Positions 17,234 through 44,320 of a stretch of 46,411 nt of DNA are shown here, in pieces. The notes beneath the pieces were generated by a model, which was not told the origin of the DNA, ran no database searches, and saw only the letters and a program-made list of their open reading frames with translations. The DNA comes from Kofleriaceae bacterium. GTDB lineage: Bacteria > Myxococcota_A > Polyangia > Haliangiales > Haliangiaceae. The stretch covers positions 1 through 46,411 of the forward strand of contig JANTGM010000042.1 of the NCBI GenBank assembly GCA_024762925.1, read 5' to 3'. How positions within the stretch are numbered: the first letter of the stretch is position 1; each line of letters starts with the position of its first letter. The position numbers were made by a program, and so were the translations under genes.

Positions 17234-18205
17234 CTAAAGCCCCATGTCTCGCCGATACCATTCGATGGTTCGGCCAAGCCCCTCTTCGAGATTTGTTTGT
17301 GCCACAAAGCCAAGCAACTCCTTCGACTTGCCAGAGTTGGGCACGCGCACTTCAACATCGGTATTGGGCCAGTCGATGAAATTCAACTTGGAAGAAGAGT
17401 TCGTTAGACGGACGATGAGCTCGGCAAGGTTGTAGATGGTCACCGTAGAACGCGCATTGCCGATATTAAATGCATGTCCAACCGCCTGGTCCTTCGAAAG
17501 GCATAGAAGCACCGCGTCGATGATGTCATCGATGTAGCACCAAGCGCGAATCTGCGAGCCTTCGTTGTGGATGGTGAGGTCTTCATTCGCGAGTGCGCGC
17601 CGAATGAAGTGGTGCACGGCGCCTTCGCCAACCTGTCGCGGACCATATACGTTGAACGGCCGAATCGAGCACGCAGGCAAGTCAAACTCTTTGTGGTAGT
17701 TCATCGCCAGGTGCTCGGTTGCAAGTTTCGCGACCGCATACGTCCAGCGAGCCTCGCCAACTGCTCCGAGCGTGGTCGAATCAAACTCCGTAACGTGGTA
17801 CGCATAGCGTCCGAAAACTTCTGAGGTACTAAAATCGATGAAGCGCTTGATCCCGCCAAGTTCTCTAGCGGCCTCCAGTGCGTTGTCGGTGCCAACCATC
17901 GCGATCCGCATCGTCTTGACCGGGTTCTTTAGGACGGTATCCACACCGGCAATCGAAGCCATGTGCACCACCGCATCACATCCCTGCATCGCTTCTCGGA
18001 GTGCGGCTGCGTCCATGACATCGCCCTTGATGATGGTGAGGTTGGGGTTCTCATCGAGCCCAGCCGTTCCCAGAGCATTTCGACGAAAGTTGTCAAAAAT
18101 CACCACATGATTGCCATCGGCGGGGGTTGCCAACAGTCGTTCCGCAAGGTGTGAGCCAATAAAGCCCGCTCCGCCGGTAATAAGCACGCGACGTCCCGAA
18201 ATCAT
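17234..18205 (-). CDS. NAD-dependent sugar-nucleotide epimerase/dehydratase (extended SDR)
   Basis: A 323-residue extended short-chain dehydrogenase. The Rossmann motif GGAGFIG sits at 11-17. The catalytic triad is visible as Ser/Thr in DFSTSEVFG, Tyr156 and Lys160 in YAVAK. Other marks are VHMAS and RPFNVYGPRQ. Known relatives are UDP-glucose 4-epimerases, dTDP-glucose dehydratases and UDP-glucuronate decarboxylases; the exact reaction cannot be told. The ATG overlaps the stop of the DNA methyltransferase gene as ATGA. Downstream, after repeat copy A, is an aminotransferase that may use its product. Confidence 0.9.
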   Translation of the reverse strand: MISGRRVLITGGAGFIGSHLAERLLATPADGNHVVIFDNFRRNALGTAGLDENPNLTIIKGDVMDAAALREAMQGCDAVVHMASIAGVDTVLKNPVKTMRIAMVGTDNALEAARELGGIKRFIDFSTSEVFGRYAYHVTEFDSTTLGAVGEARWTYAVAKLATEHLAMNYHKEFDLPACSIRPFNVYGPRQVGEGAVHHFIRRALANEDLTIHNEGSQIRAWCYIDDIIDAVLLCLSKDQAVGHAFNIGNARSTVTIYNLAELIVRLTNSSSKLNFIDWPNTDVEVRVPNSGKSKELLGFVAQTNLEEGLGRTIEWYRRDMGL

Positions 18206-19908
18206 TCGGAGAGTCTAATCAACTCGCGCTCGTTGGGCGAGATTTCGTAGGCGCTTTCCACCAGAGCATCCACCTCTTCGGCCACCGATGTGGCGCCGCT
18301 TGAAGACGCGACTTGGGCCAGCTTGGCAAGACGAGGCTCAACCTTGCTCCAGAGCGCAGGCGTTGGCAGCGGGAAGTCGCGCAAATGCCCAAGTTTGAGT
18401 TCGGCAAAGAGCCGCCCCCGCCTCGGCTGAACCGCGCGAAAGTACCAAGTCATGAAGCGACTATTGAGTAGGGCGACCAATGCCAACCGCCGCTCCACTG
18501 CTTCTTTGCTGTGTCCCTTGGCCCTATCGAGCAAGACAAAGAGATTGTTTGAGACGTAGTAGCCCTTGGCGTCAAAGGCAGCCATCACGCGGTCCCCCGT
18601 GCGACGCACGACAATCTTGTTGCGTCCATGCCACTCAGTTCGCCCGAGGTTGGCATAATACCCAGCACTTCGATCCACCGCCCTCGGATCGAGATTCAGC
18701 CACCGCCCATTCCAGCGGAGGGAATAGGGCGCCATCTCCCGGCCACCCACGACGATTCTTCGAGCGGGACCTGTGCCCTTCTCTTCCATAAACAGCCGCT
18801 TGCGAGCATTTCCTGTGTGCACGCCTTCATGCATTTCGAAGCGCTGCCCAAGTCGCGGAAGGGCTTTCAAACGCCGATAGAGCGCGAGCGCCGGCCCGTG
18901 GAGATAGAGGTTGAACTTGTGCCCCGGCAACTCGCGAAACACTGCTTGATGTTGCCGATGAGTCGGGAGCCTAGATTGTGACCACGTTGCGTCGAGCCTC
19001 GGCCAAACCCGCAGCTGATGCTCGGCACAAGGTGGCTTGGCAACGCGCTTTGCACAGATGGCGACAGCGTCGATATTTGCGCCTTCAAAAGCCTGGCCAC
19101 AGTGGGCGATTTCGGTGATGGCACTCCCATCGAGAATCAGATCGCGAACCTCCTGGAGGTTCTTCAGAAGCACGATATCGGGCAGTACGTAGCCCCAGGG
19201 AGCACCTACGGGCAGAATCTGGTGAGCGCGCTCAACAAAGAATTTAAAAGGATCCCAAACCCCGCGTGCTGTCAAAAAGAGTTCCTGGTATCGAGCTCGA
19301 GCTTGCTTCGATAGCTTCAACCCCTTCTGCCCCCACGGTGGGTTTCCGACGATTGCGTCAATGGAAGGGAGCGACGTCTCGGGCAAGAGGGCGTCGCCAG
19401 CGATGAGCGTGGCTCGACACTCCTGCCCAACCGCCAGCTGCAGAGCTGCACGGCTCACTTCGAGAGCGTTCGCATCCAAGTCCACTCCGACGAGACAGGC
19501 CGAGAGTTTTCGCCGAAGCGCTGGACCGCGCCGTGCCCCCCCCTTCAAGCAGTGGAATTCGAGGTACCGCAAGACGCCCAGCAGAAAGGCCCCTCCGCCG
19601 CAGCTGGGATCCAAAATGCGCAACGCTTTGATCTTCGCCGGCGTCTGCCCAACGACAAGATCAGCAAGTGCATGCTCTACCACGAAGTCCACCAGGTATT
19701 CGGGCGTATAGAAGCTCCCCTGACCTCGTTGCTGGGCCTTTTCGGTCGCCAGATGAGCCTCGTAGAGAGGTCCAAGACTGCCAGGATCCACCCAGTCCCC
19801 GCCCTCGAAGGCGCGAGAGAGCGTGTGCAGAAGTGGCGCCCCCAAACGCGCCTCGCGAGTGAGCGCTTCCAGAATGCGTCTCTGATCTCCCGGCCGGCCT
19901 CGAGACAT
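18202..19908 (-). CDS. N6-adenine DNA methyltransferase (Eco57I/TaqI-like, no nuclease domain seen)
   Basis: A 568-residue class I SAM-dependent methyltransferase. In order: GSFYTP (motif X, ~64-69), LDPSCGGGAFL (motif I, ~99-109), VGVDLD (motif II) and the catalytic NPPWG (motif IV, 189-193). The C-terminal half fits a TaqI-type recognition domain (VSNNLFVLL, LLNSRFMTWYF, LRDFPLP). No PD-(D/E)XK nuclease segment was seen and no restriction gene is adjacent, so it may be an orphan methylase or the modification part of a split system. GGAGG abuts the ATG with no spacing, so a leaderless start or another start is possible. It overlaps the epimerase gene by 4 nt. Confidence 0.85.
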   Translation of the reverse strand: MSRGRPGDQRRILEALTREARLGAPLLHTLSRAFEGGDWVDPGSLGPLYEAHLATEKAQQRGQGSFYTPEYLVDFVVEHALADLVVGQTPAKIKALRILDPSCGGGAFLLGVLRYLEFHCLKGGARRGPALRRKLSACLVGVDLDANALEVSRAALQLAVGQECRATLIAGDALLPETSLPSIDAIVGNPPWGQKGLKLSKQARARYQELFLTARGVWDPFKFFVERAHQILPVGAPWGYVLPDIVLLKNLQEVRDLILDGSAITEIAHCGQAFEGANIDAVAICAKRVAKPPCAEHQLRVWPRLDATWSQSRLPTHRQHQAVFRELPGHKFNLYLHGPALALYRRLKALPRLGQRFEMHEGVHTGNARKRLFMEEKGTGPARRIVVGGREMAPYSLRWNGRWLNLDPRAVDRSAGYYANLGRTEWHGRNKIVVRRTGDRVMAAFDAKGYYVSNNLFVLLDRAKGHSKEAVERRLALVALLNSRFMTWYFRAVQPRRGRLFAELKLGHLRDFPLPTPALWSKVEPRLAKLAQVASSSGATSVAEEVDALVESAYEISPNERELIRLSE

Positions 19909-34808: not shown

Positions 34809-36098
34809 TTACAGCCGACGACACCAAGCCTGGCTAGCTGCAAGAGCCAACACGGTCACCGAAGCCACAAAGACAAGCGTGCCTGCGAAATCGGGCGCGC
34901 GGAGGATGAGCGGCACCCCACCAAGTGCAGCGATGAGGCCGATTCGCAACTGAGCAGCCCCCGTCTTTGCAGCGATAGCAGCTTGCGGAGAGATGGGTAG
35001 TGTGCGCAATAGCGATGGAATTTCAACAGGTTCAACCATATACCGTCTCGCCATCACAAGCGCGTAGACCACAAGCCCTGCGAGGATGGACCCACCCCAC
35101 GCGAGGTAAGCATCGGGTTCGGTACCGGCGACAATCCACAGAGCAACGATGCCAACTGGGATTAGGAAATACGGCGATGGGTAACGGCGACGAGCCAGAC
35201 TGGCGTCTTTGATGGCAACCTTGTGAGCACCGGGATTGCGCAACCAAACTCCAAAGAAGCCCCGCTCGAGTGCAGATGGTGTACTGCGCTCAATGTGCGC
35301 CAAGATCTCTTGGTCGAGGGCTGCTACTTCGCGCACTGCAGCAGGAACAATGTCGTCGGCTTTGGTCCAGGCCCAGACGCCTGCCACAATCGGAATGCCA
35401 AGGCCAAGCCCAGCAACTAGCATGATGGATCCTCCAGGTGGACGACCTCCTAGGGTCCACGAAGCGCAGGAGATGAGCGCGATAGCAACCGCGGTAGCAG
35501 CCAGGCCTGGCAAGATGCTCAACCAGGTTGTGCGCGGAGCCTGAAACTCTCCCCCCATGTTAGCGATCATCGATTGGGCTTTGTCGGAAGCCACGATGGC
35601 ACCTGCAGCAAGAGATGCCGCTGGCCCCAACCAAGCTGCACCTGCAAAGCCAATCGCGAGAGGCAATGTGTGTCTAGCGGCAACGTCCCAATCGACAAAG
35701 GCGCCCAGTGCAATGAGACCACAGGCAAGAGCAATGGAGACGTGCAATGCAACTCGCTGAGAACGCCACAAGGCAAGGGCAAATAGGCTGCGCCCAGGCA
35801 CGGGGAGGCTTGCGAGCAACTTGGAGTCACGACGCCAAAAGAGCCGGAACGACGCCCCAAAAACGCCAACAAGGTATCCACACACTGCGGCCGCAAACCA
35901 CAAATTTGACGCGGCGATCGCGGTAGGAACAACGTCGGAATCTGAGGCCATGAGTAGCCGCCGAGCGATTTCGACCGCCAGCAGAGTTCCCAGAAAAACA
36001 CTGACAATCACCCCGGGAAGCGCCTGAAAACCGCCTTTTTGCTGTCGTCTTCGGCGTTCTTCTAAGTTGGCCCAGCGGATGAGCGCGGACGGTCTCAC
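34809..36098 (-). CDS. ABC transporter permease (polytopic membrane protein)
   Basis: A 429-residue membrane protein with about ten to twelve hydrophobic segments arranged as two halves, with a hydrophilic loop near the middle (about 245-300). The GTG start overlaps the stop of the ATPase gene as GTGA, so it is the membrane partner of that ATPase. The family is not one of the common named permeases; the identification rests mainly on coupling. The substrate is unknown. No terminator was found after its stop. Confidence 0.8.
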   Translation of the reverse strand: MRPSALIRWANLEERRRRQQKGGFQALPGVIVSVFLGTLLAVEIARRLLMASDSDVVPTAIAASNLWFAAAVCGYLVGVFGASFRLFWRRDSKLLASLPVPGRSLFALALWRSQRVALHVSIALACGLIALGAFVDWDVAARHTLPLAIGFAGAAWLGPAASLAAGAIVASDKAQSMIANMGGEFQAPRTTWLSILPGLAATAVAIALISCASWTLGGRPPGGSIMLVAGLGLGIPIVAGVWAWTKADDIVPAAVREVAALDQEILAHIERSTPSALERGFFGVWLRNPGAHKVAIKDASLARRRYPSPYFLIPVGIVALWIVAGTEPDAYLAWGGSILAGLVVYALVMARRYMVEPVEIPSLLRTLPISPQAAIAAKTGAAQLRIGLIAALGGVPLILRAPDFAGTLVFVASVTVLALAASQAWCRRL

Positions 36099-36835
36099 TC
36101 GGCTCCTCCGGGCTCTGAGACAAGCGAGAGATACAATTCTTCAATGGCGCCCGGCCCCTTGGCAAGCAATGCTTCGAGTTCCGAGCCCGAGACATCGGCC
36201 TTGAGAAGACCTTGGTCCATGATGAGAATGCGTTGGCATAACCTTTCGGCGATGCCAAGAAGGTGCGTGGACATGAGGATGGCAGCGCCGCCCTCGGCAG
36301 CCTTGCTCAGTGCGCTGCGCGCGCGAACCGCCGCTCTTGGATCGAGCCCATTGAGCGTTTCATCAAGCAAGACAACATCGACTCCACCAACCAAGGCAGC
36401 TGCCAGCCCAACGCGTTGCCGCATACCAAAGGACAGCTCCCGACAAAGGCGCTTTCCGATTGACGCCAACCCCAGGTCGGCAAGAAGTGGAGTGTAGTCG
36501 GTTGCTTCGTCTGCTCCTCGGGTTTGACCAACAAACGCTAGGTGTTCTTCCACTGTGTAGAACTCGTAGAGGGATGGTGGCTGATCGGCAAAACCAATGC
36601 GAGAGCGCACTTTCAGAGGCGCACTGACCAAGGATGAACCGTCTACCTTGATCGTGCCAGCACTCGGCACCAGCGCGCCTGCAATAGCAAGCAAGGTTGT
36701 GCTCTTTCCGGCACCATTTGGGCCGAGCATCGCGACAATCTCCCCGGCCTGAAGGCTGAGGTCCAGTGCATCAACGGCAACCCGTTTTCCGTAGTGAACC
36801 GTGAGGCTCTCGACATCGAGCAAGGAAGTGGACAT
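36095..36835 (-). CDS. ABC transporter ATP-binding protein
   Basis: A 246-residue ATPase with intact Walker A (GPNGAGKST, about 38-46), Q-loop (FADQPPSLYEF), signature (ELSFGMRQRVG), Walker B (VVLLDETLNGLDP) and H-loop (MSTHLLG). The Q-loop/signature type is that of ABC-2 exporters. The start at 36835 (MSTSLLDVES) fits the family; the longer open frame would overlap the divergent promoter region. The stop overlaps the permease GTG by 4 nt. Divergent from the NTPase-HEAT gene, with about 94 bp between starts. Confidence 0.92.
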   Translation of the reverse strand: MSTSLLDVESLTVHYGKRVAVDALDLSLQAGEIVAMLGPNGAGKSTTLLAIAGALVPSAGTIKVDGSSLVSAPLKVRSRIGFADQPPSLYEFYTVEEHLAFVGQTRGADEATDYTPLLADLGLASIGKRLCRELSFGMRQRVGLAAALVGGVDVVLLDETLNGLDPRAAVRARSALSKAAEGGAAILMSTHLLGIAERLCQRILIMDQGLLKADVSGSELEALLAKGPGAIEELYLSLVSEPGGAE

Positions 36836-36917
36836 CTGGCGCGTTGTTACCACGGCAACCTTCCGGCTTGCAGCGCAACTGGGCGGTTTCAAACCGATCG
36901 GTGCTTGGGGAATTGGG

Positions 36918-36923
36918 TATAGT
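36918..36923 (+). promoter_or_regulatory. TATAGT -10 box before the NTPase-HEAT gene
   Basis: TATAGT ends 6 nt before the GTG at 36930, in the 94-bp gap between two divergent genes. No clear -35 and no Shine-Dalgarno. Confidence 0.4.
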
Positions 36924-36929
36924 CGGGCC

Positions 36930-39900
36930 GTGCCTGTCGCTACCTATTCTGGGACGGTGACGCCACTCCGCGGTCTGGGCTGTTTTGCCGAATCCGAGCG
37001 TGACGTCTTTTTTGGTCGAGATCGAGAACGAGAGGAACTCGCCCGTCTTGTGACGTCTCAAGGGTTTCGTGCCGGCCTTCTGTATGGGGAAGCGGGCGTT
37101 GGCAAGAGTTCACTCCTTCGTGCTGGATTGCAACCCGATCTTCGCGATCAAGGTGTGGTTGCTCTGCTCTGCGGCGACAACGCTCGTCCCCTCGATTCCT
37201 TTGCGCACGCCCTCGGGGCGGCTACGGGCCAGTCTCCTGTCGAGCGCGAGACCACAACAGCATTTCTTGCCCGAGTCATCGCCGAGTCATCGCAAATGTA
37301 TCTCTTCATTTTCGATGATGTGGATCTTGCGATGCAAACAAGCGAGCGAGTGACAACGGAGATTGCCGAACTCTTCACTCGTGTTGCGTCGCGTTCGGCA
37401 GGACGCGCGCGCTTTCTCTTCTCCTCTTCAAGTGAGCACGTGCATCGCTATGGGGCACTGGAGCAGCGCACAGGCTCGCTATTCCCACCCACGAGCCGAT
37501 ACGAACTTGGGAGAATGCTCGCAAGCGAGGCTCTCAACGTTCTAGAGCGCACCATTGCATTGTCAGGATTTCCCTCCGACGACGAGGTCACAAAGGCGCT
37601 TGTACAAGACCTGGCGCTGCGCGGCCCAGTGCTTCCCGCGGAGTTGCAAATAGCCGCGTTGGCCGTCAAAGAGCAGGGCATCACAAGTGCAATGCAACTG
37701 CACGAGGTGGGGGGCTATGCCGAGATAGAGCGACGATGGCTCACCTCTGCGGCGGCGGCGACCGGCAACGAGCGTGGTGCGATGCGCCTGCTTGGAGAGC
37801 TTGCTAGCGGTAGCTTCGGAACAGCGCACTCTGGGGCCGATGCCGCGAGTCGAGCCGGTGTCCCCCTCGAATTTGCAGCACGTGCGTTGGCGGTGTTTGA
37901 GAGCAAGGGATTGGTGCGCTCCCAATCCGCCTCGGTCGCAGGATCAGAAGAACTCCTATACGAATTTTCTCATGAGATTCTGCCCGCGCGGGTGCGAGAA
38001 GTAGCGGCCCCGGCAAGACGGGCAGCGGCACGCGCATTCAAACTCTTGGGCAAGAAGTCCAAGAGCGGCAAGCGCTTGTCAATTCGAGAGTATTTTGAAG
38101 TGCGACGCGAGGGCATTGTTCCCGCAACAACAGAAGAGAAGGCGGTCATCGATCGCACGCTGCTCCTCGGAAAAATCGTCGCTGCTGTAGTCTGCGCGCT
38201 TCCAATCCTGATCATCCTCATTGCCTATATTGCAATGTCTGGCAGCTACTACCTCGATACCAACAAGGGCAAAGACGGTGGTGAGACCATCGTCGTGCGA
38301 GCCGGCAAACCCAGCCTCTCGTGGTTTGACTGGCTTCCGAGTTCTCCCACCTTTGGATCCGTGGTCGCTGACACCGGCCTCTCTTCCAGAATGGTCTCGG
38401 AAACGTTCTGGAACAGGGCACGCGCTGGCGATGTCTCGGGATCGCTCGACGGCAGGGAGTATGCCGTGCAGTCCGCCAAAGCGTTGCAACCCAGGCTCGC
38501 GCTGCTTGTGGACTACGCGAAAGATGGAGATGGCGCCACACTTCAGGCTCTGCATGAGAGTGTCTCCAGCGCAGACGACTTTGCGCAGGTACTTAGCCAA
38601 CTTCGATCAATTGCCCAGGGGTCGCCAGAGGAAGAGCAACTCATCACCAAGGCACTGGCCGATGCCTCCCCCGCTGTGCAAACCGAGGCGCTTCTTGTAG
38701 CCGCAGCCGCTGCTGAACGGCGAGAAGGCAGCTATTCCGAGATCCTCACCAATGGACTCGCCTCTGCAGATGCAAGCCAACGACGCCTCACAATGTCCGT
38801 TGTCAGAACGCTCGGGGCGAAAACCGCGGAGAGTCTCTACCAAAGCGCACTCGCAAAGGCCCCCGATCCAGCGGCACGACGCGAACTTCTGGCGCTTATG
38901 AGTTCTGCTGACGACACACGTGGACCATCAGCGGCGTCGGCAACGACGGTTCTCCTGGGTGAGAATATTTCTGATGCGACTCGCAACAAGGCACGAGCGA
39001 TGCTTCGACGAGCCTTTCAGAGCGAAGCTGCAGCGGCATCTACCGACGCAAGCAAACTCATCGCAAACGCCTCTGCCAGTACAGAGGATCGCATTCTGGC
39101 AATGTCACTTGCCCGCGACTTTGCACCCGAAGAAAGCTACGCAGAGCTCGCCACAGCGGCCGAAGCAGCCCTCAAGTCTCAGGACATCAAAGTGCGAGCT
39201 GCAGCCCTTCCTCTCTACGCTCACGCTGCACCGCAAAACGCTGCTGGTGACCTAGCCCGCATGCTTTCCGAACCAGACCTGCCGCCAGAAATGAACATCG
39301 CCCTTGCCCTTGCTTGGGGGGAAGTCGCCCGAGGAGATAGCGCCAATCGTATGGCCGCACAGAGCGCGCTCGAGCAGCTTCTTCGCAGCGATCGACGCGA
39401 TGTTCGCGCAGCAGCCGCTCGCGCGTACGGCTACATCGGCCGCGGTGCACAAGCCAATCTCATCAAGATGGTGAAGACGGAGTTCATTGATGTTGCCGAG
39501 AGCGCTGCCTATGGCCTTGCGAACGGCGCAGAGATTGGTGCTCCAGTTGGCAACGCGGTCATGGGAATTCGCGATATGTGGAAGAGAAAGGGTCGCTTGC
39601 GTCGCATCGCAACTCGAGTCTTTGCACGCATCGCCCGCACAAATCCTGGGCCCGTCTACGCTTTGCTGGTGAGTGCAGCCCGGTCCAGTGATGATGAGAG
39701 CTTGCAACCAATTGGCATGGAGGGCCTGTGCAATGCACTCAAAGCTGGGTACCCAAAGGTTGGCAGAGACCTCGCAAACGCCGCCAACAATCCTCAGATC
39801 GATGTTCGTCGAATCGCCATCAACTGTGTGGTAGACAATCCGAAATACTCTGAGGTCGCTGCACGAGTCGCCGCAGCAATGGTCGATGATAGCAGCGGTG

Positions 39901-40883
39901 ATATCCGCACAGAGAGTGCTCGCGTCCTCGCCGCATTGGCCGCATCGGGACAAAGTGCAAAACTCGTTGGCCCAGCGCTGAGCAAGATGGTCAAGGACGA
40001 AAACCGTGGTGTTCGCATGGTCGCTATCCGAGCCCTCGCCGAGCTCGATGGTGGCGCCCCCAAAGCTGCGATGGCCGCTTTGCCCTTTGCCTTTGACAAC
40101 GGAGATGAGGGCGAGAAGCTAGCAATTCTCGAGGTGGCCGCCAAGATCGGCGCAGTCGATATTGTTCCGCTCGGCATCGCAGATGCCAGCCCTGTTGTCC
40201 GCATTCGAGCCTTGGATGCCTCGATCGCCACTGGTACTGATGTGAGTTCGGTGCTCAGCTCCTCTCTCACCGATCCTGATACCAGCGTCCGCCGTGCTGC
40301 TCTTCTCCGGCTCTCCGAAGGCAAACACGGTTTGCCACAGAGCGACGTGGACACCGCTCTGGCTCTAGCGATTCGCGACGTCGAGCCTGGCATCGCCGAC
40401 CTGGCAATGATGGCGAGCGCGCGCCTGGGAGCGCCGGATGCGGTGGCGGCTCGCCTTGGTAGAGACCTGGCAAGCCGCTCCGAGGCAGTTCGATCTAAAG
40501 CGGTGACGGCCAGCCAAGGACTGGTGACACAGGATTCAGCAGCAGCACGCACCTTGCTCGAACCAGTATTGCAAGATGAAAGTCACGATGTTCGTGTCGC
40601 ACTCTTAGAGCCATTGGCACGAGCCCTCGCGGCAACGATGGAGCCTGCAGCACTCACAAAGCTAATGATCAAGTCAGAGAGTCGAGCAAACCGCCGGTTG
40701 GTGGCAGCAGCAGCCTTGTGGGTACTCGCTTCCGATGATGCGACGCACGATGCAGCAACCACTCAGCTCCAAAAGGTGGCCAATGACGGGCCTCCTCTTT
40801 CGAGAGACCTTGCGGCACTTGTGCTCAGCTTGCGTCAGCGATCCGCTAGCGGCCTCGCCTTCTTGTCTCTCTTGGTTCCATAG
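36930..40883 (+). CDS. STAND-type P-loop NTPase with one membrane helix and long HEAT-repeat region
   Basis: A protein of about 1317 residues. Residues ~12-35 (LRGLGCFAESERDVFFGRDRE) match the lead-in of bacterial novel-STAND NTPases. Walker A is GEAGVGKSS (about 53-61) and Walker B FIFDDVD (about 126-132). A helical region follows, then a basic stretch (KKSKSGKR) and one membrane helix at about 413-436. The remaining ~880 residues are HEAT-type helical repeats (RDVRAAAARAYGYIGRGAQ, RGVRMVAIRALAELDGG). By the positive-inside rule the NTPase is cytoplasmic and the HEAT part periplasmic, which is unusual for a STAND sensor tail. The GTG at 36930 was preferred over an upstream GTG inside the divergent ATPase gene. 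The next gene starts 4 nt after the stop. Confidence 0.82.
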   Translation: MPVATYSGTVTPLRGLGCFAESERDVFFGRDREREELARLVTSQGFRAGLLYGEAGVGKSSLLRAGLQPDLRDQGVVALLCGDNARPLDSFAHALGAATGQSPVERETTTAFLARVIAESSQMYLFIFDDVDLAMQTSERVTTEIAELFTRVASRSAGRARFLFSSSSEHVHRYGALEQRTGSLFPPTSRYELGRMLASEALNVLERTIALSGFPSDDEVTKALVQDLALRGPVLPAELQIAALAVKEQGITSAMQLHEVGGYAEIERRWLTSAAAATGNERGAMRLLGELASGSFGTAHSGADAASRAGVPLEFAARALAVFESKGLVRSQSASVAGSEELLYEFSHEILPARVREVAAPARRAAARAFKLLGKKSKSGKRLSIREYFEVRREGIVPATTEEKAVIDRTLLLGKIVAAVVCALPILIILIAYIAMSGSYYLDTNKGKDGGETIVVRAGKPSLSWFDWLPSSPTFGSVVADTGLSSRMVSETFWNRARAGDVSGSLDGREYAVQSAKALQPRLALLVDYAKDGDGATLQALHESVSSADDFAQVLSQLRSIAQGSPEEEQLITKALADASPAVQTEALLVAAAAAERREGSYSEILTNGLASADASQRRLTMSVVRTLGAKTAESLYQSALAKAPDPAARRELLALMSSADDTRGPSAASATTVLLGENISDATRNKARAMLRRAFQSEAAAASTDASKLIANASASTEDRILAMSLARDFAPEESYAELATAAEAALKSQDIKVRAAALPLYAHAAPQNAAGDLARMLSEPDLPPEMNIALALAWGEVARGDSANRMAAQSALEQLLRSDRRDVRAAAARAYGYIGRGAQANLIKMVKTEFIDVAESAAYGLANGAEIGAPVGNAVMGIRDMWKRKGRLRRIATRVFARIARTNPGPVYALLVSAARSSDDESLQPIGMEGLCNALKAGYPKVGRDLANAANNPQIDVRRIAINCVVDNPKYSEVAARVAAAMVDDSSGDIRTESARVLAALAASGQSAKLVGPALSKMVKDENRGVRMVAIRALAELDGGAPKAAMAALPFAFDNGDEGEKLAILEVAAKIGAVDIVPLGIADASPVVRIRALDASIATGTDVSSVLSSSLTDPDTSVRRAALLRLSEGKHGLPQSDVDTALALAIRDVEPGIADLAMMASARLGAPDAVAARLGRDLASRSEAVRSKAVTASQGLVTQDSAAARTLLEPVLQDESHDVRVALLEPLARALAATMEPAALTKLMIKSESRANRRLVAAAALWVLASDDATHDAATTQLQKVANDGPPLSRDLAALVLSLRQRSASGLAFLSLLVP

Positions 40884-40887
40884 TGCC

Positions 40888-41961
40888 GTGTCGGTGAACC
40901 CCGAAGTACGCTGCTGGGCCCATGTCGCCGCAAAAACAAATGGACGCCTACAGGTTCGTCACATTTTCAAAGGCCCGAGGCAAGCGAGAAAACGCTTTGG
41001 CTTGCCCTCGCTTGAGACCACAATCGGCGGCATCCATGTGCAAGGCGAAGTCACTGGCGAGGGCGACCCACCAGCAACCTTCGCCCAACTCTCCGCGCGT
41101 GTTCCTAGCGCTATCGGATTGAAGCTAAGAATTTATCGCAACTACCTCGTTCCTCAGCGAGGGCGAGTCGTTGGTGTTGAAGGAGTGGTTACTGGTGCAC
41201 CGCACTTCGATCGCAACTTCAACCTAAAGTCCAATGATCCAGCCTATGCACGGGTTTGGCTTACAGCGCAATCTCGCGAAGCCATGTTGGCCGCCCCTGA
41301 CTACGCATTCGAAATCGACAACGGGCGAGTCACCGCTTCCAGCTACCGAGCTGACGATGCCGGGCAACTTGAGTCGGCACTCAATGCTCTCGCACTGCTT
41401 GCGAAACGCGGCTTCGAGCTCACGACCCAGATACGAGGCCTGGCGCGAAGGCTGGGCAGTGACGACACGATCGAAGATACACCGTGGCTTGAATGTGGCG
41501 GCCCTGAATTTGAATTCATCAGTGGCAGTCGACGAGTTTCGATCGCCATCGAACACGGACGCATTAGCCGTCGCGCAACTCGGAGATTGCTCTCGCGGCT
41601 CTGGTGTCGCAGACTAACGGCCCGCAGCGACCGCTTTGTCTTTTACGCGGACAGCTTGTCTCGAAAGGAGCGCCCTGTGTTGGCGAGCAAGCTTGCGCGC
41701 TGTCATTTGGGATCTCTGCATCCCCCTGGGTACTTTGTTCACGCGAGCAATCTAGAGCGACTTCATGAGCGCCTCACCGAGCCGTGGGCTCGAGCCATTG
41801 CACGACTGTCGCCACTAGTTTTCAGTTGCTCGGAGGCAGCGGTTGAACTGGTTTGGGCCGGAGCTGTGCTTCGCGAGCAAAAACTCCGCGATGCAGCCAG
41901 TCTCTGTGAGTACTTCGCAGTTGAGCAGCACGGTGTCGTTTCCAAAGGCCCCTATCGCTAG
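40888..41961 (+). CDS. Hypothetical protein co-transcribed with the NTPase-HEAT gene
   Basis: A 357-residue soluble protein with no signal peptide or membrane helix. A stretch near 120-165 (FDRNFNLKSNDPAYARVWLTAQ) resembles the 'FD..F.V.SDDP..A...L' pattern of several membrane-linked hypothetical families, but the match is weak. The rest is Arg-rich alpha/beta with no motif recognised. The GTG start is 4 nt after the stop of the NTPase-HEAT gene, which makes a shared transcript and function likely. A bidirectional terminator follows 28 nt after its stop. Confidence 0.72.
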   Translation: MSVNPEVRCWAHVAAKTNGRLQVRHIFKGPRQARKRFGLPSLETTIGGIHVQGEVTGEGDPPATFAQLSARVPSAIGLKLRIYRNYLVPQRGRVVGVEGVVTGAPHFDRNFNLKSNDPAYARVWLTAQSREAMLAAPDYAFEIDNGRVTASSYRADDAGQLESALNALALLAKRGFELTTQIRGLARRLGSDDTIEDTPWLECGGPEFEFISGSRRVSIAIEHGRISRRATRRLLSRLWCRRLTARSDRFVFYADSLSRKERPVLASKLARCHLGSLHPPGYFVHASNLERLHERLTEPWARAIARLSPLVFSCSEAAVELVWAGAVLREQKLRDAASLCEYFAVEQHGVVSKGPYR

Positions 41962-42093: not shown

Positions 42094-42369
42094 CTTCTTG
42101 CACCTCCCCTGGCTTTCGGCCAGCGCCCGGCCATCTTGGCCCGCTCAGTCAACGCTGTTTCTTCTTCCAACGGCAGCGGTTCCCTGACTGGACGTTTGTA
42201 TATTCGACCCCAAAGGGTCAGTTACCAGAACACTCACGGGCAGCACAATCACTACCAGTTTGTCCCCTAGACGACACATGTCCGTACTCTTATGCTAAGA
42301 GAACTTTTCCAGGAACGCCAGAAAAGAACCAAAGACGGACCTGAAAAACCTAGAAGTACGAGTGACACA
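42094..42369. other. Divergent leader region between the 15-codon ORF and queF
   Basis: Contains the hairpin and Shine-Dalgarno of the minus-strand mini-ORF, a GACCC-TTTG-GGGTC palindrome near 42209-42222 and a perfect CTCTTA-TGC-TAAGAG palindrome at 42287-42301 that could sit between divergent promoters. A second minus-strand frame of 44 codons (42145-42279, starting [15 protein letters not shown]) has a CATAAG hexamer before it but no Shine-Dalgarno; it is not called a gene. Confidence 0.4.
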
Positions 42370-42732
42370 ATGCCCAGCAAGCCAACTAAGCACTTGGATA
42401 CGTTTGAAAACCCCAAGAGCAATCGCAACTACGAAATCCGTTTTGACTGTCCTGAGTTTACCTGTCTTTGCCCGGTGACCGGTCAGCCGGACTTTGCAAC
42501 GATCCGGATCAAATACGTTCCCGATCAAACCTGCGTTGAGTTAAAATCTCTCAAACTGTATTTGTGGAGCTTTCGCAATGAAGGCTGCTTTCACGAAGCG
42601 GTTACCAATCGCATCCTCGATGACTTGGTCGCGGCTATCGCCCCCCGACAAATGACCGTGACCGGCGATTTCTGGGTTCGTGGCGGCATCACCACCGTGG
42701 TTGAAGCCAGGCACCCAAACCCCGAGCTCTAG
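42370..42732 (+). CDS. queF: NADPH-dependent 7-cyano-7-deazaguanine reductase (QueF, unimodular)
   Basis: A 120-residue enzyme of the short T-fold QueF type. Catalytic Cys34 lies in [13 protein letters not shown] with Asp41. [17 protein letters not shown] is the QueF signature, and His75/Glu76 (CFHEAVTN) follow. It reduces preQ0 to preQ1 on the path to queuosine in tRNA. The ATG at 42370 gives the standard N-terminus ([12 protein letters not shown]). An upstream in-frame ATG at 42292 would add 26 residues not usual in the family. No other queuosine gene is nearby and no preQ1-riboswitch consensus was seen. Its TAG stop is in the CTAG end of repeat copy B. Confidence 0.93.
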
Positions 42733-43837: not shown

Positions 43838-44320
43838 CTAGAAAGTGAAAATCTGGTCTGCCGAGAGCTTCTCGTCTGGGTCTTTGAGCATTGGCTCATC
43901 ACTGACAGGCTTTGGAGCAGGTTTTGGAGCCGCAACCGCCTGAGAGATGGGCTGGTTAATCGAGGAAGGCCGAGAAGGTGTCTTGGGATGTGGAGCTTGG
44001 GGATGTGGAGCTTGGGGATGTGGAGCTTGGGGATGTGGAGCCTGGGCTTGTGGAGCCTGGGCTTGTGGAGCCTGGGCTGCAATCGAGAATGCGTCAGTGC
44101 GCACAGGTTCGGGTGCAGGAGCTGGCCGCGCAGCTTGTGCTGGAGCCGAAGGAGCTGAGGCTGCTGGCTGAGGTGCTGCGCCAGAACGGCCCAGGTAGTC
44201 CCCAACTCGGCGCTCAACAAACTGGCTCATCGAGATTTGATTGGTTTCACAGTACGCCTTAAGGCGCTCATAGGTGCCACGGCTGACACTGATGCTTCGA
44301 CGGGTTTGCTTCTTCGCCAT
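43838..44320 (-). CDS. Ribbon-helix-helix-type regulator with Pro/Ala/Gln repeat tail
   Basis: A 160-residue protein. Residues ~1-45 ([37 protein letters not shown]) fit a CopG/Arc-type ribbon-helix-helix DNA-binding fold: one basic strand and two helices. The rest is a low-complexity Pro/Ala linker with tandem [10 protein letters not shown] units, ending in an acidic tail ([14 protein letters not shown]). RHH proteins bind DNA as dimers and often repress their own gene. An 8-bp inverted repeat overlaps this gene's promoter (44342-44368), which fits autoregulation. The repeat tail is coded by a 15-bp tandem repeat and may vary in length between strains. Confidence 0.78.
43987..44076. repeat. 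15-bp tandem repeat (6 units) in the RHH gene
   Basis: Three identical GATGTGGAGCTTGGG units followed by three variants (a GATG...CCTGGG unit and two CTTGTGGAGCCTGGG units). On the coding strand they encode repeated QAPHP and QAPQA pentapeptides. The period is a multiple of three. Confidence 0.9.

Follow-up and report, generated by a model that had tools for sequence, protein, structure and literature searches.

The window analysed here (46,411 nucleotides, the whole of contig JANTGM010000042.1 from a Kofleriaceae bacterium) encodes a 1317-residue protein, V, in which a STAND-type NTPase of the nSTAND1 clade is followed by a single transmembrane helix and a long HEAT-repeat arm that is predicted to lie in the periplasm (Table 1). 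STAND ATPases are known chiefly as switches of immunity and cell death. For V we put the chances at about even that it is instead an inner-membrane, nucleotide-switched envelope protein controlling a periplasmic scaffold. A more specific version is proposed only tentatively, namely that V is a transmembrane STAND machine working from the inside out, which would re-arrange a disulfide-stapled HEAT scaffold and form a core envelope part of one myxobacterial order. If true, V shows a STAND switch serving envelope housekeeping rather than immunity; the periplasm contains no ATP, and V would supply it with a scaffold under ATP control. No paper describing the V protein was found in the open-licence literature.

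Table 1. Coordinates of V, its parts and the neighbouring genes in the window
Feature	Position	Strand	Basis or remarks
V, nSTAND1-TM-HEAT protein	36930..40883	+	GTG start, 1317 aa
STAND/Cdc6-type ATPase module of V, residues ~10-350	36957..37979	+	PF20703, conserved residues, model, fold matches
Walker A of V, around G53-S61	37086-37112	+	
Walker B of V, D129	37314-37316	+	
MHD-like H348 of V	37971-37973	+	
TM helix of V, residues ~416-436, within predicted long helix 401-437	38175..38237	+	hydropathy, model
Juxtamembrane alpha/beta segment of V, residues 437-505, motif VVVRxGRxxL...FGxxVADTGL	38238..38444	+	conserved motif, modelled strands
HEAT alpha-solenoid of V, residues ~521-1317, predicted periplasmic	38490..40880	+	HEAT_2, modelled helices, Foldseek
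C934 (39729-39731) and C966 (39825-39827) of V, proposed inter-repeat disulfide	39729..39827	+	
W, unannotated, diffuse family; judged outside the system	40888..41961	+	357 aa, GTG start
QueF	42292-42732	+	same strand as V here; usually convergent to V in family relatives where the contig reaches
U-V divergent intergenic region, 94 bp	36836..36929	.	DUF4139 site in most family members
U, ABC transporter ATPase, conserved neighbour divergent from V	36095..36835	-	ABC_tran 1.2e-27, ATG start, synteny
T, probable ABC permease, conserved with U	34809..36098	-	hydrophobic, without Pfam match; synteny
S, TPR protein beside U/T, 2086 aa	28184..34444	-	present in several relatives where the contig is long enough

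Domain architecture and switch residues

An earlier note, made from the sequence alone, had read V as a STAND NTPase with a single membrane helix and HEAT repeats, and the profile searches bear out the NTPase and the repeats. Pfam places nSTAND1 (PF20703) at residues 12-237 (3.5e-20; 73.4 bits against a cut-off of 27.1), AAA_22 just passes its cut-off over the NTPase, and HEAT_2 is recognized above its cut-off in five stretches (3.6e-12). V is the only nSTAND1 protein in its own genome. V probably starts at the GTG at 36930, since the homologs share the same first residue in the alignment; an upstream start at 36801, offered by the list of open reading frames, was rejected because the homologs begin at the position of 36930.

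The features looked for as marks of the nSTAND1 clade are all present in V, comprising the profile itself, Walker A and B motifs, an MHD-like His, helical and winged-helix domains, and C-terminal repeats. The ATPase module is predicted to consist of the NTPase, the helical domain and the winged-helix domain in one unit. G53, G58, S61, D129 and H348 are invariant in 21 homologs, and K59 is kept in 20 of the 21. The remaining homolog, from a same-genus genome (L003, a single MAG), reads GVGRTS at Walker A (K59R) and is otherwise well conserved, which, if the substitution is genuine, implies that V may do without strict ATP turnover. Ahead of the NTPase, whose start is at about residue 10, neither an effector nor any other output domain was found.

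An AlphaFold model of residues 1-520, for which V was aligned with ten relatives, is confident (mean pLDDT 87.5). It displays the two wing strands of the winged-helix domain (329-336 and 339-346) followed by the invariant H348, a continuous helix at 401-437, and three juxtamembrane strands (439-446, 452-458 and 478-485). Over residues 9-370 the model matches Cdc6/Orc1 (Z 18), plant NB-ARC (Z 16.9), and Apaf-1 and NLRC4 (Z 15), with matches spanning roughly 300-330 residues and several of them carrying a large rmsd of 5-11 Å; judged from the model, the domains of V thus appear related to those of this set but in a different arrangement. In a second model, covering residues 1-1200, HEAT-type helix pairs are predicted from about residue 521 to the end of the model at 1200, and Foldseek matched the arm to SF3B1, karyopherins, CAND1 and PP2A-A. 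The alignments behind the models held 10-11 sequences. The longer model has a pTM of 0.44, and the overall curvature that it gives the solenoid is unreliable. Sequence searches of solved structures with V returned weak matches to designed repeats only.

Membrane topology, the cysteine pair and the direction of signalling

Residues 417-436 of V are strongly hydrophobic (GES mean 2.21), close to the 413-436 first proposed for the helix. A hydropathy scan detected one dominant hydrophobic segment per homolog in 21 of 21, always at the same alignment position, and the segment is therefore not a matter of chance. The basic residues that had been noticed ahead of the helix are likewise present, nine K/R falling within the 40 residues on its N-terminal side and four within the 40 on its C-terminal side; the corresponding ranges across the 21 homologs are 7-11 and 3-7. 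The NTPase needs ATP and has no export signal ahead of it; it must therefore be inside the cell, and a single crossing then puts the rest outside, which argues strongly for a periplasmic C-terminal part. The earlier estimate of about 880 residues of HEAT repeats outside the cytoplasm stands as to length (437-1317, 881 residues) and compartment, the latter supported by hydropathy and cysteines; its first 85 or so residues are alpha/beta rather than HEAT.

A separate argument for a periplasmic arm comes from its scarce cysteines, which are kept, lost or moved in pairs. The 881 residues past the helix hold exactly two, C934 and C966, spaced by 32 residues. Of 30 homologs that span the site, 27 keep both cysteines, three lack the two together and no homolog has just one, although these homologs are kin and the count does not amount to 30 independent trials. 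Two distant homologs without C934/C966 (L059 and L060) possess an alternative pair at 864/897, with the same spacing of 32 residues when each homolog is numbered by its own sequence; the arm of the third, L078, is free of cysteine altogether. In the 1-1200 model C934 falls within helix 925-938 and C966 within helix 957-968, and a single helix separates the two; the alternative positions, in helices 853-868 and 889-901, are likewise separated by one helix. We infer a putative inter-repeat disulfide: two cysteines that shift together, onto the corresponding helices of adjacent repeats, fit such a bond, and their relocation is hard to explain otherwise.

The mechanism we favour would place the nSTAND1 module in the cytoplasm, one helix across the membrane and some 880 residues, mostly HEAT, in the periplasm. 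Exchange of ADP for ATP would open the STAND module and permit self-association, which in turn would cluster or re-orient the periplasmic arms. The arms may then serve an unvarying partner in the envelope as its scaffold or adaptor; this partner is probably tied to the divergent ABC transporter and to the putatively exported DUF4139 proteins that are encoded beside V in most relatives. Given an NTPase that starts at about residue 10 and the lack of a cytoplasmic output domain, the likeliest output of V is the periplasmic arm itself. Self-assembly, the envelope role and the inside-out direction are each what we infer for V.

STAND modules are usually ligand-triggered switches in which the repeats are the sensor, and signalling could accordingly run from the outside in: the periplasmic HEAT arm would bind an envelope signal and set the cytoplasmic STAND switch, which would act on an unlinked cytoplasmic output. 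This direction draws on the same topology evidence (the helix and the cysteine pair), on the STAND-like fold of V and on the invariance of its MHD-like H348. It is weakened by the missing output domain ahead of the NTPase and by the want of any conserved cytoplasmic partner gene adjoining V, bar the ABC ATPase. We regard it as a possible reading, not much less likely than the inside-out direction.

It is improbable, in our estimate, that the helix is a mere anchor or a buried helix and that the HEAT arm is a scaffold within the cytoplasm. AlphaFold is blind to the sides of a membrane, and both the juxtamembrane segment and the arm were modelled without membrane context, which leaves room for this reading. 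Against it, the helix stands far above other hydrophobic segments in nearly all homologs and has a basic N-terminal flank, and a cysteine-poor arm with a co-varying pair is typical of an oxidising compartment. Nor can the NTPase be the outside part, with nothing ahead of it that could export it. The accompanying premise of the earlier note, that STAND sensors usually sit on the same side of the membrane as the NTPase, was too strong, as strong TM-like helices follow nSTAND1, or lie by NACHT-HEAT, in loci of other phyla, and a periplasmic case has been predicted before (PMC10907252).

Conservation, gene neighbourhood and the question of defence

V is a single-copy gene in 29 of the 30 genomes of its family, the one genome without it being 59% complete, and it was recovered from 31 of 35 genomes of the order; in a few fragmented genomes it was seen only as fragments divided between two contigs. 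Some, though not all, other families of the class have divergent homologs of full length (24-33% identity). The profile scan of the phylum scored only two candidates per genome, and its absences are weak evidence. Scanning the named genomes with V alone as query gave no match, whereas the V alignment retrieved 22 loci, about ten of them true relatives and some of these partial. One homolog (G020:C454 356-4276, L054) contains one in-frame TAG stop and may be a pseudogene or reflect an error in the assembly. The alignment carries 2.71 bits of information per column over the NTPase and 2.40-2.66 bits over the three parts of the HEAT arm, and residues 1201-1230 rank with the best-conserved stretches of V. 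By this measure the arm is conserved about as well as the NTPase and is not fast-evolving, which is not expected of a sensor of changing phage antigens.

On its upstream side V is divergently oriented from U, followed by T and then S, a gene order retained in relatives. U lies beside V, divergently, in nearly all family loci that have this flank, the exception being L043, where U is reversed. In most of the family, one or two DUF4139-type genes in tandem separate U from V (upstream of V at L037, L039-L042, L044-L054 and L063). Of two such genes tested, one passed the Pfam cut-off and the other was assigned by position and tblastn only; read from the sequence, their N-termini look like a putative signal peptide and a putative lipoprotein signal. 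The window's genus, like G006, G008, G003 and G030, has no DUF4139 gene between U and V, and the DUF4139 loci elsewhere in V's own genome included no ortholog of the inserted genes bar one weak match. A function for DUF4139 in such a context was not found in the open literature. U/T is thus the most constant neighbour of V in the order and DUF4139 the next. Since DUF4139 is missing in some genomes, and V sits among other genes without this neighbourhood in distant families, the functional tie of V to the ABC/DUF4139 cluster is positional only.

Downstream, W does start 4 nt past the V stop (GTG at 40888), as had been reported when the two were put forward as a candidate pair. The pairing itself did not hold up. 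W follows V in the window genome alone and in no relative examined; a same-genus genome (G001) has a convergent Sel1-like ORF after the end of V and no W. The relatives of W are weak (22-29% identity) and scattered, and none was beside V in the loci examined. Pfam, PADLOC and sequences of solved structures gave W no accepted family match; its residues 97-135 resemble DUF3137 below cut-off (E 0.063; 13.6 bits against 26.1), and two W relatives did not match DUF3137. QueF is inverted here relative to the family relatives, from which we take the 3' flank of V to have been rearranged in this genus. W is not part of a conserved pair, and its adjacency to V is a local accident. That W is a real partner recruited recently in this species alone would be compatible with the 4-nt gap and with a terminator-like hairpin 3' of W, itself within chance expectation, which together would permit co-transcription; the Sel1-like ORF at the same place in G001 and the flipped QueF speak against such recruitment, and we hold it to be quite unlikely. 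Farther along this flank, a small protein (43838-44320, minus strand) with a conserved N-terminus and a repetitive tail shows conserved synteny near V.

Defence, the other role suggested for V, receives little backing. With PADLOC the best value for V was E 0.03, and neither V nor W had a match at E 0.01 or better; among 20 other window proteins, the matches near V were generic ABC-ATPase matches only. About 17 kb from V lies a type II DNA methyltransferase-like ORF (18202-19908, minus strand; MTase_II in PADLOC, 6.2e-36), upstream of an ORF for an NAD-dependent epimerase (17234-18205, minus strand). The neighbours of V in the window and in relatives are ABC, DUF4139, QueF and other non-defence genes. 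The marks of conflict STAND proteins, namely an N-terminal effector or linked effector gene, a defence neighbourhood and patchy spread, are all absent from V. An Avs- or NLR-like anti-phage STAND with W as effector or partner would be in keeping with the proposed conflict systems of multicellular bacteria that contain nSTAND1 (PMC8195603, PMC7159879) and with the closeness of W to V, but W is not conserved, V is a single-copy core gene, and V offers neither a variable sensor nor an effector domain. Because V lacks both an effector and a variable arm and is conserved throughout the family, an anti-phage role is unlikely, and this particular form of it very much so.

Comparison with known systems

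The layout of V can be compared to that of ExeA/GspA from type II secretion. ExeA, an AAA-type ATPase, offers a precedent: it has its ATPase domain in the cytoplasm, a single TM and an extensive domain in the periplasm, and it is required for secretin assembly (PMC4098917). The order of cytoplasmic ATPase, TM and periplasmic C-terminal part is alike in the two, in the case of V by prediction, and homology is not claimed. The differences are that V carries a HEAT solenoid and no peptidoglycan-binding domain (no Pfam match), and that no ExeB or secretin gene was seen beside V. Closer in its components is a cyanobacterial HEAT-TM-NACHT-HEAT protein (L090, FACHB-63), which likewise has HEAT repeats and a TM-like helix in the same chain as a STAND-type NTPase; its domain order and NTPase clade differ, and it matched V through HEAT only.

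Membrane-linked or periplasmic STAND parts have been predicted before, in the DGR 3 target of Thiohalocapsa PB-PSB1, a predicted periplasmic STAND sensor (PMC10907252), and in the iSTAND systems, whose STAND proteins have predicted membrane or periplasmic parts (PMC7159879). V resembles both in this respect; theirs are variable sensors of the lectin type or conflict systems of several genes, in contrast to the constant HEAT arm of V. With the nSTAND1 clade (PF20703, named in PMC8195603) V shares the Walker A and B motifs, the helical and winged-helix domains, the MHD-like His and the C-terminal repeats. It departs from that clade in having no N-terminal effector, in a TM helix that puts the repeats outside the cytoplasm, and in being a conserved single-copy gene rather than a patchy conflict gene.
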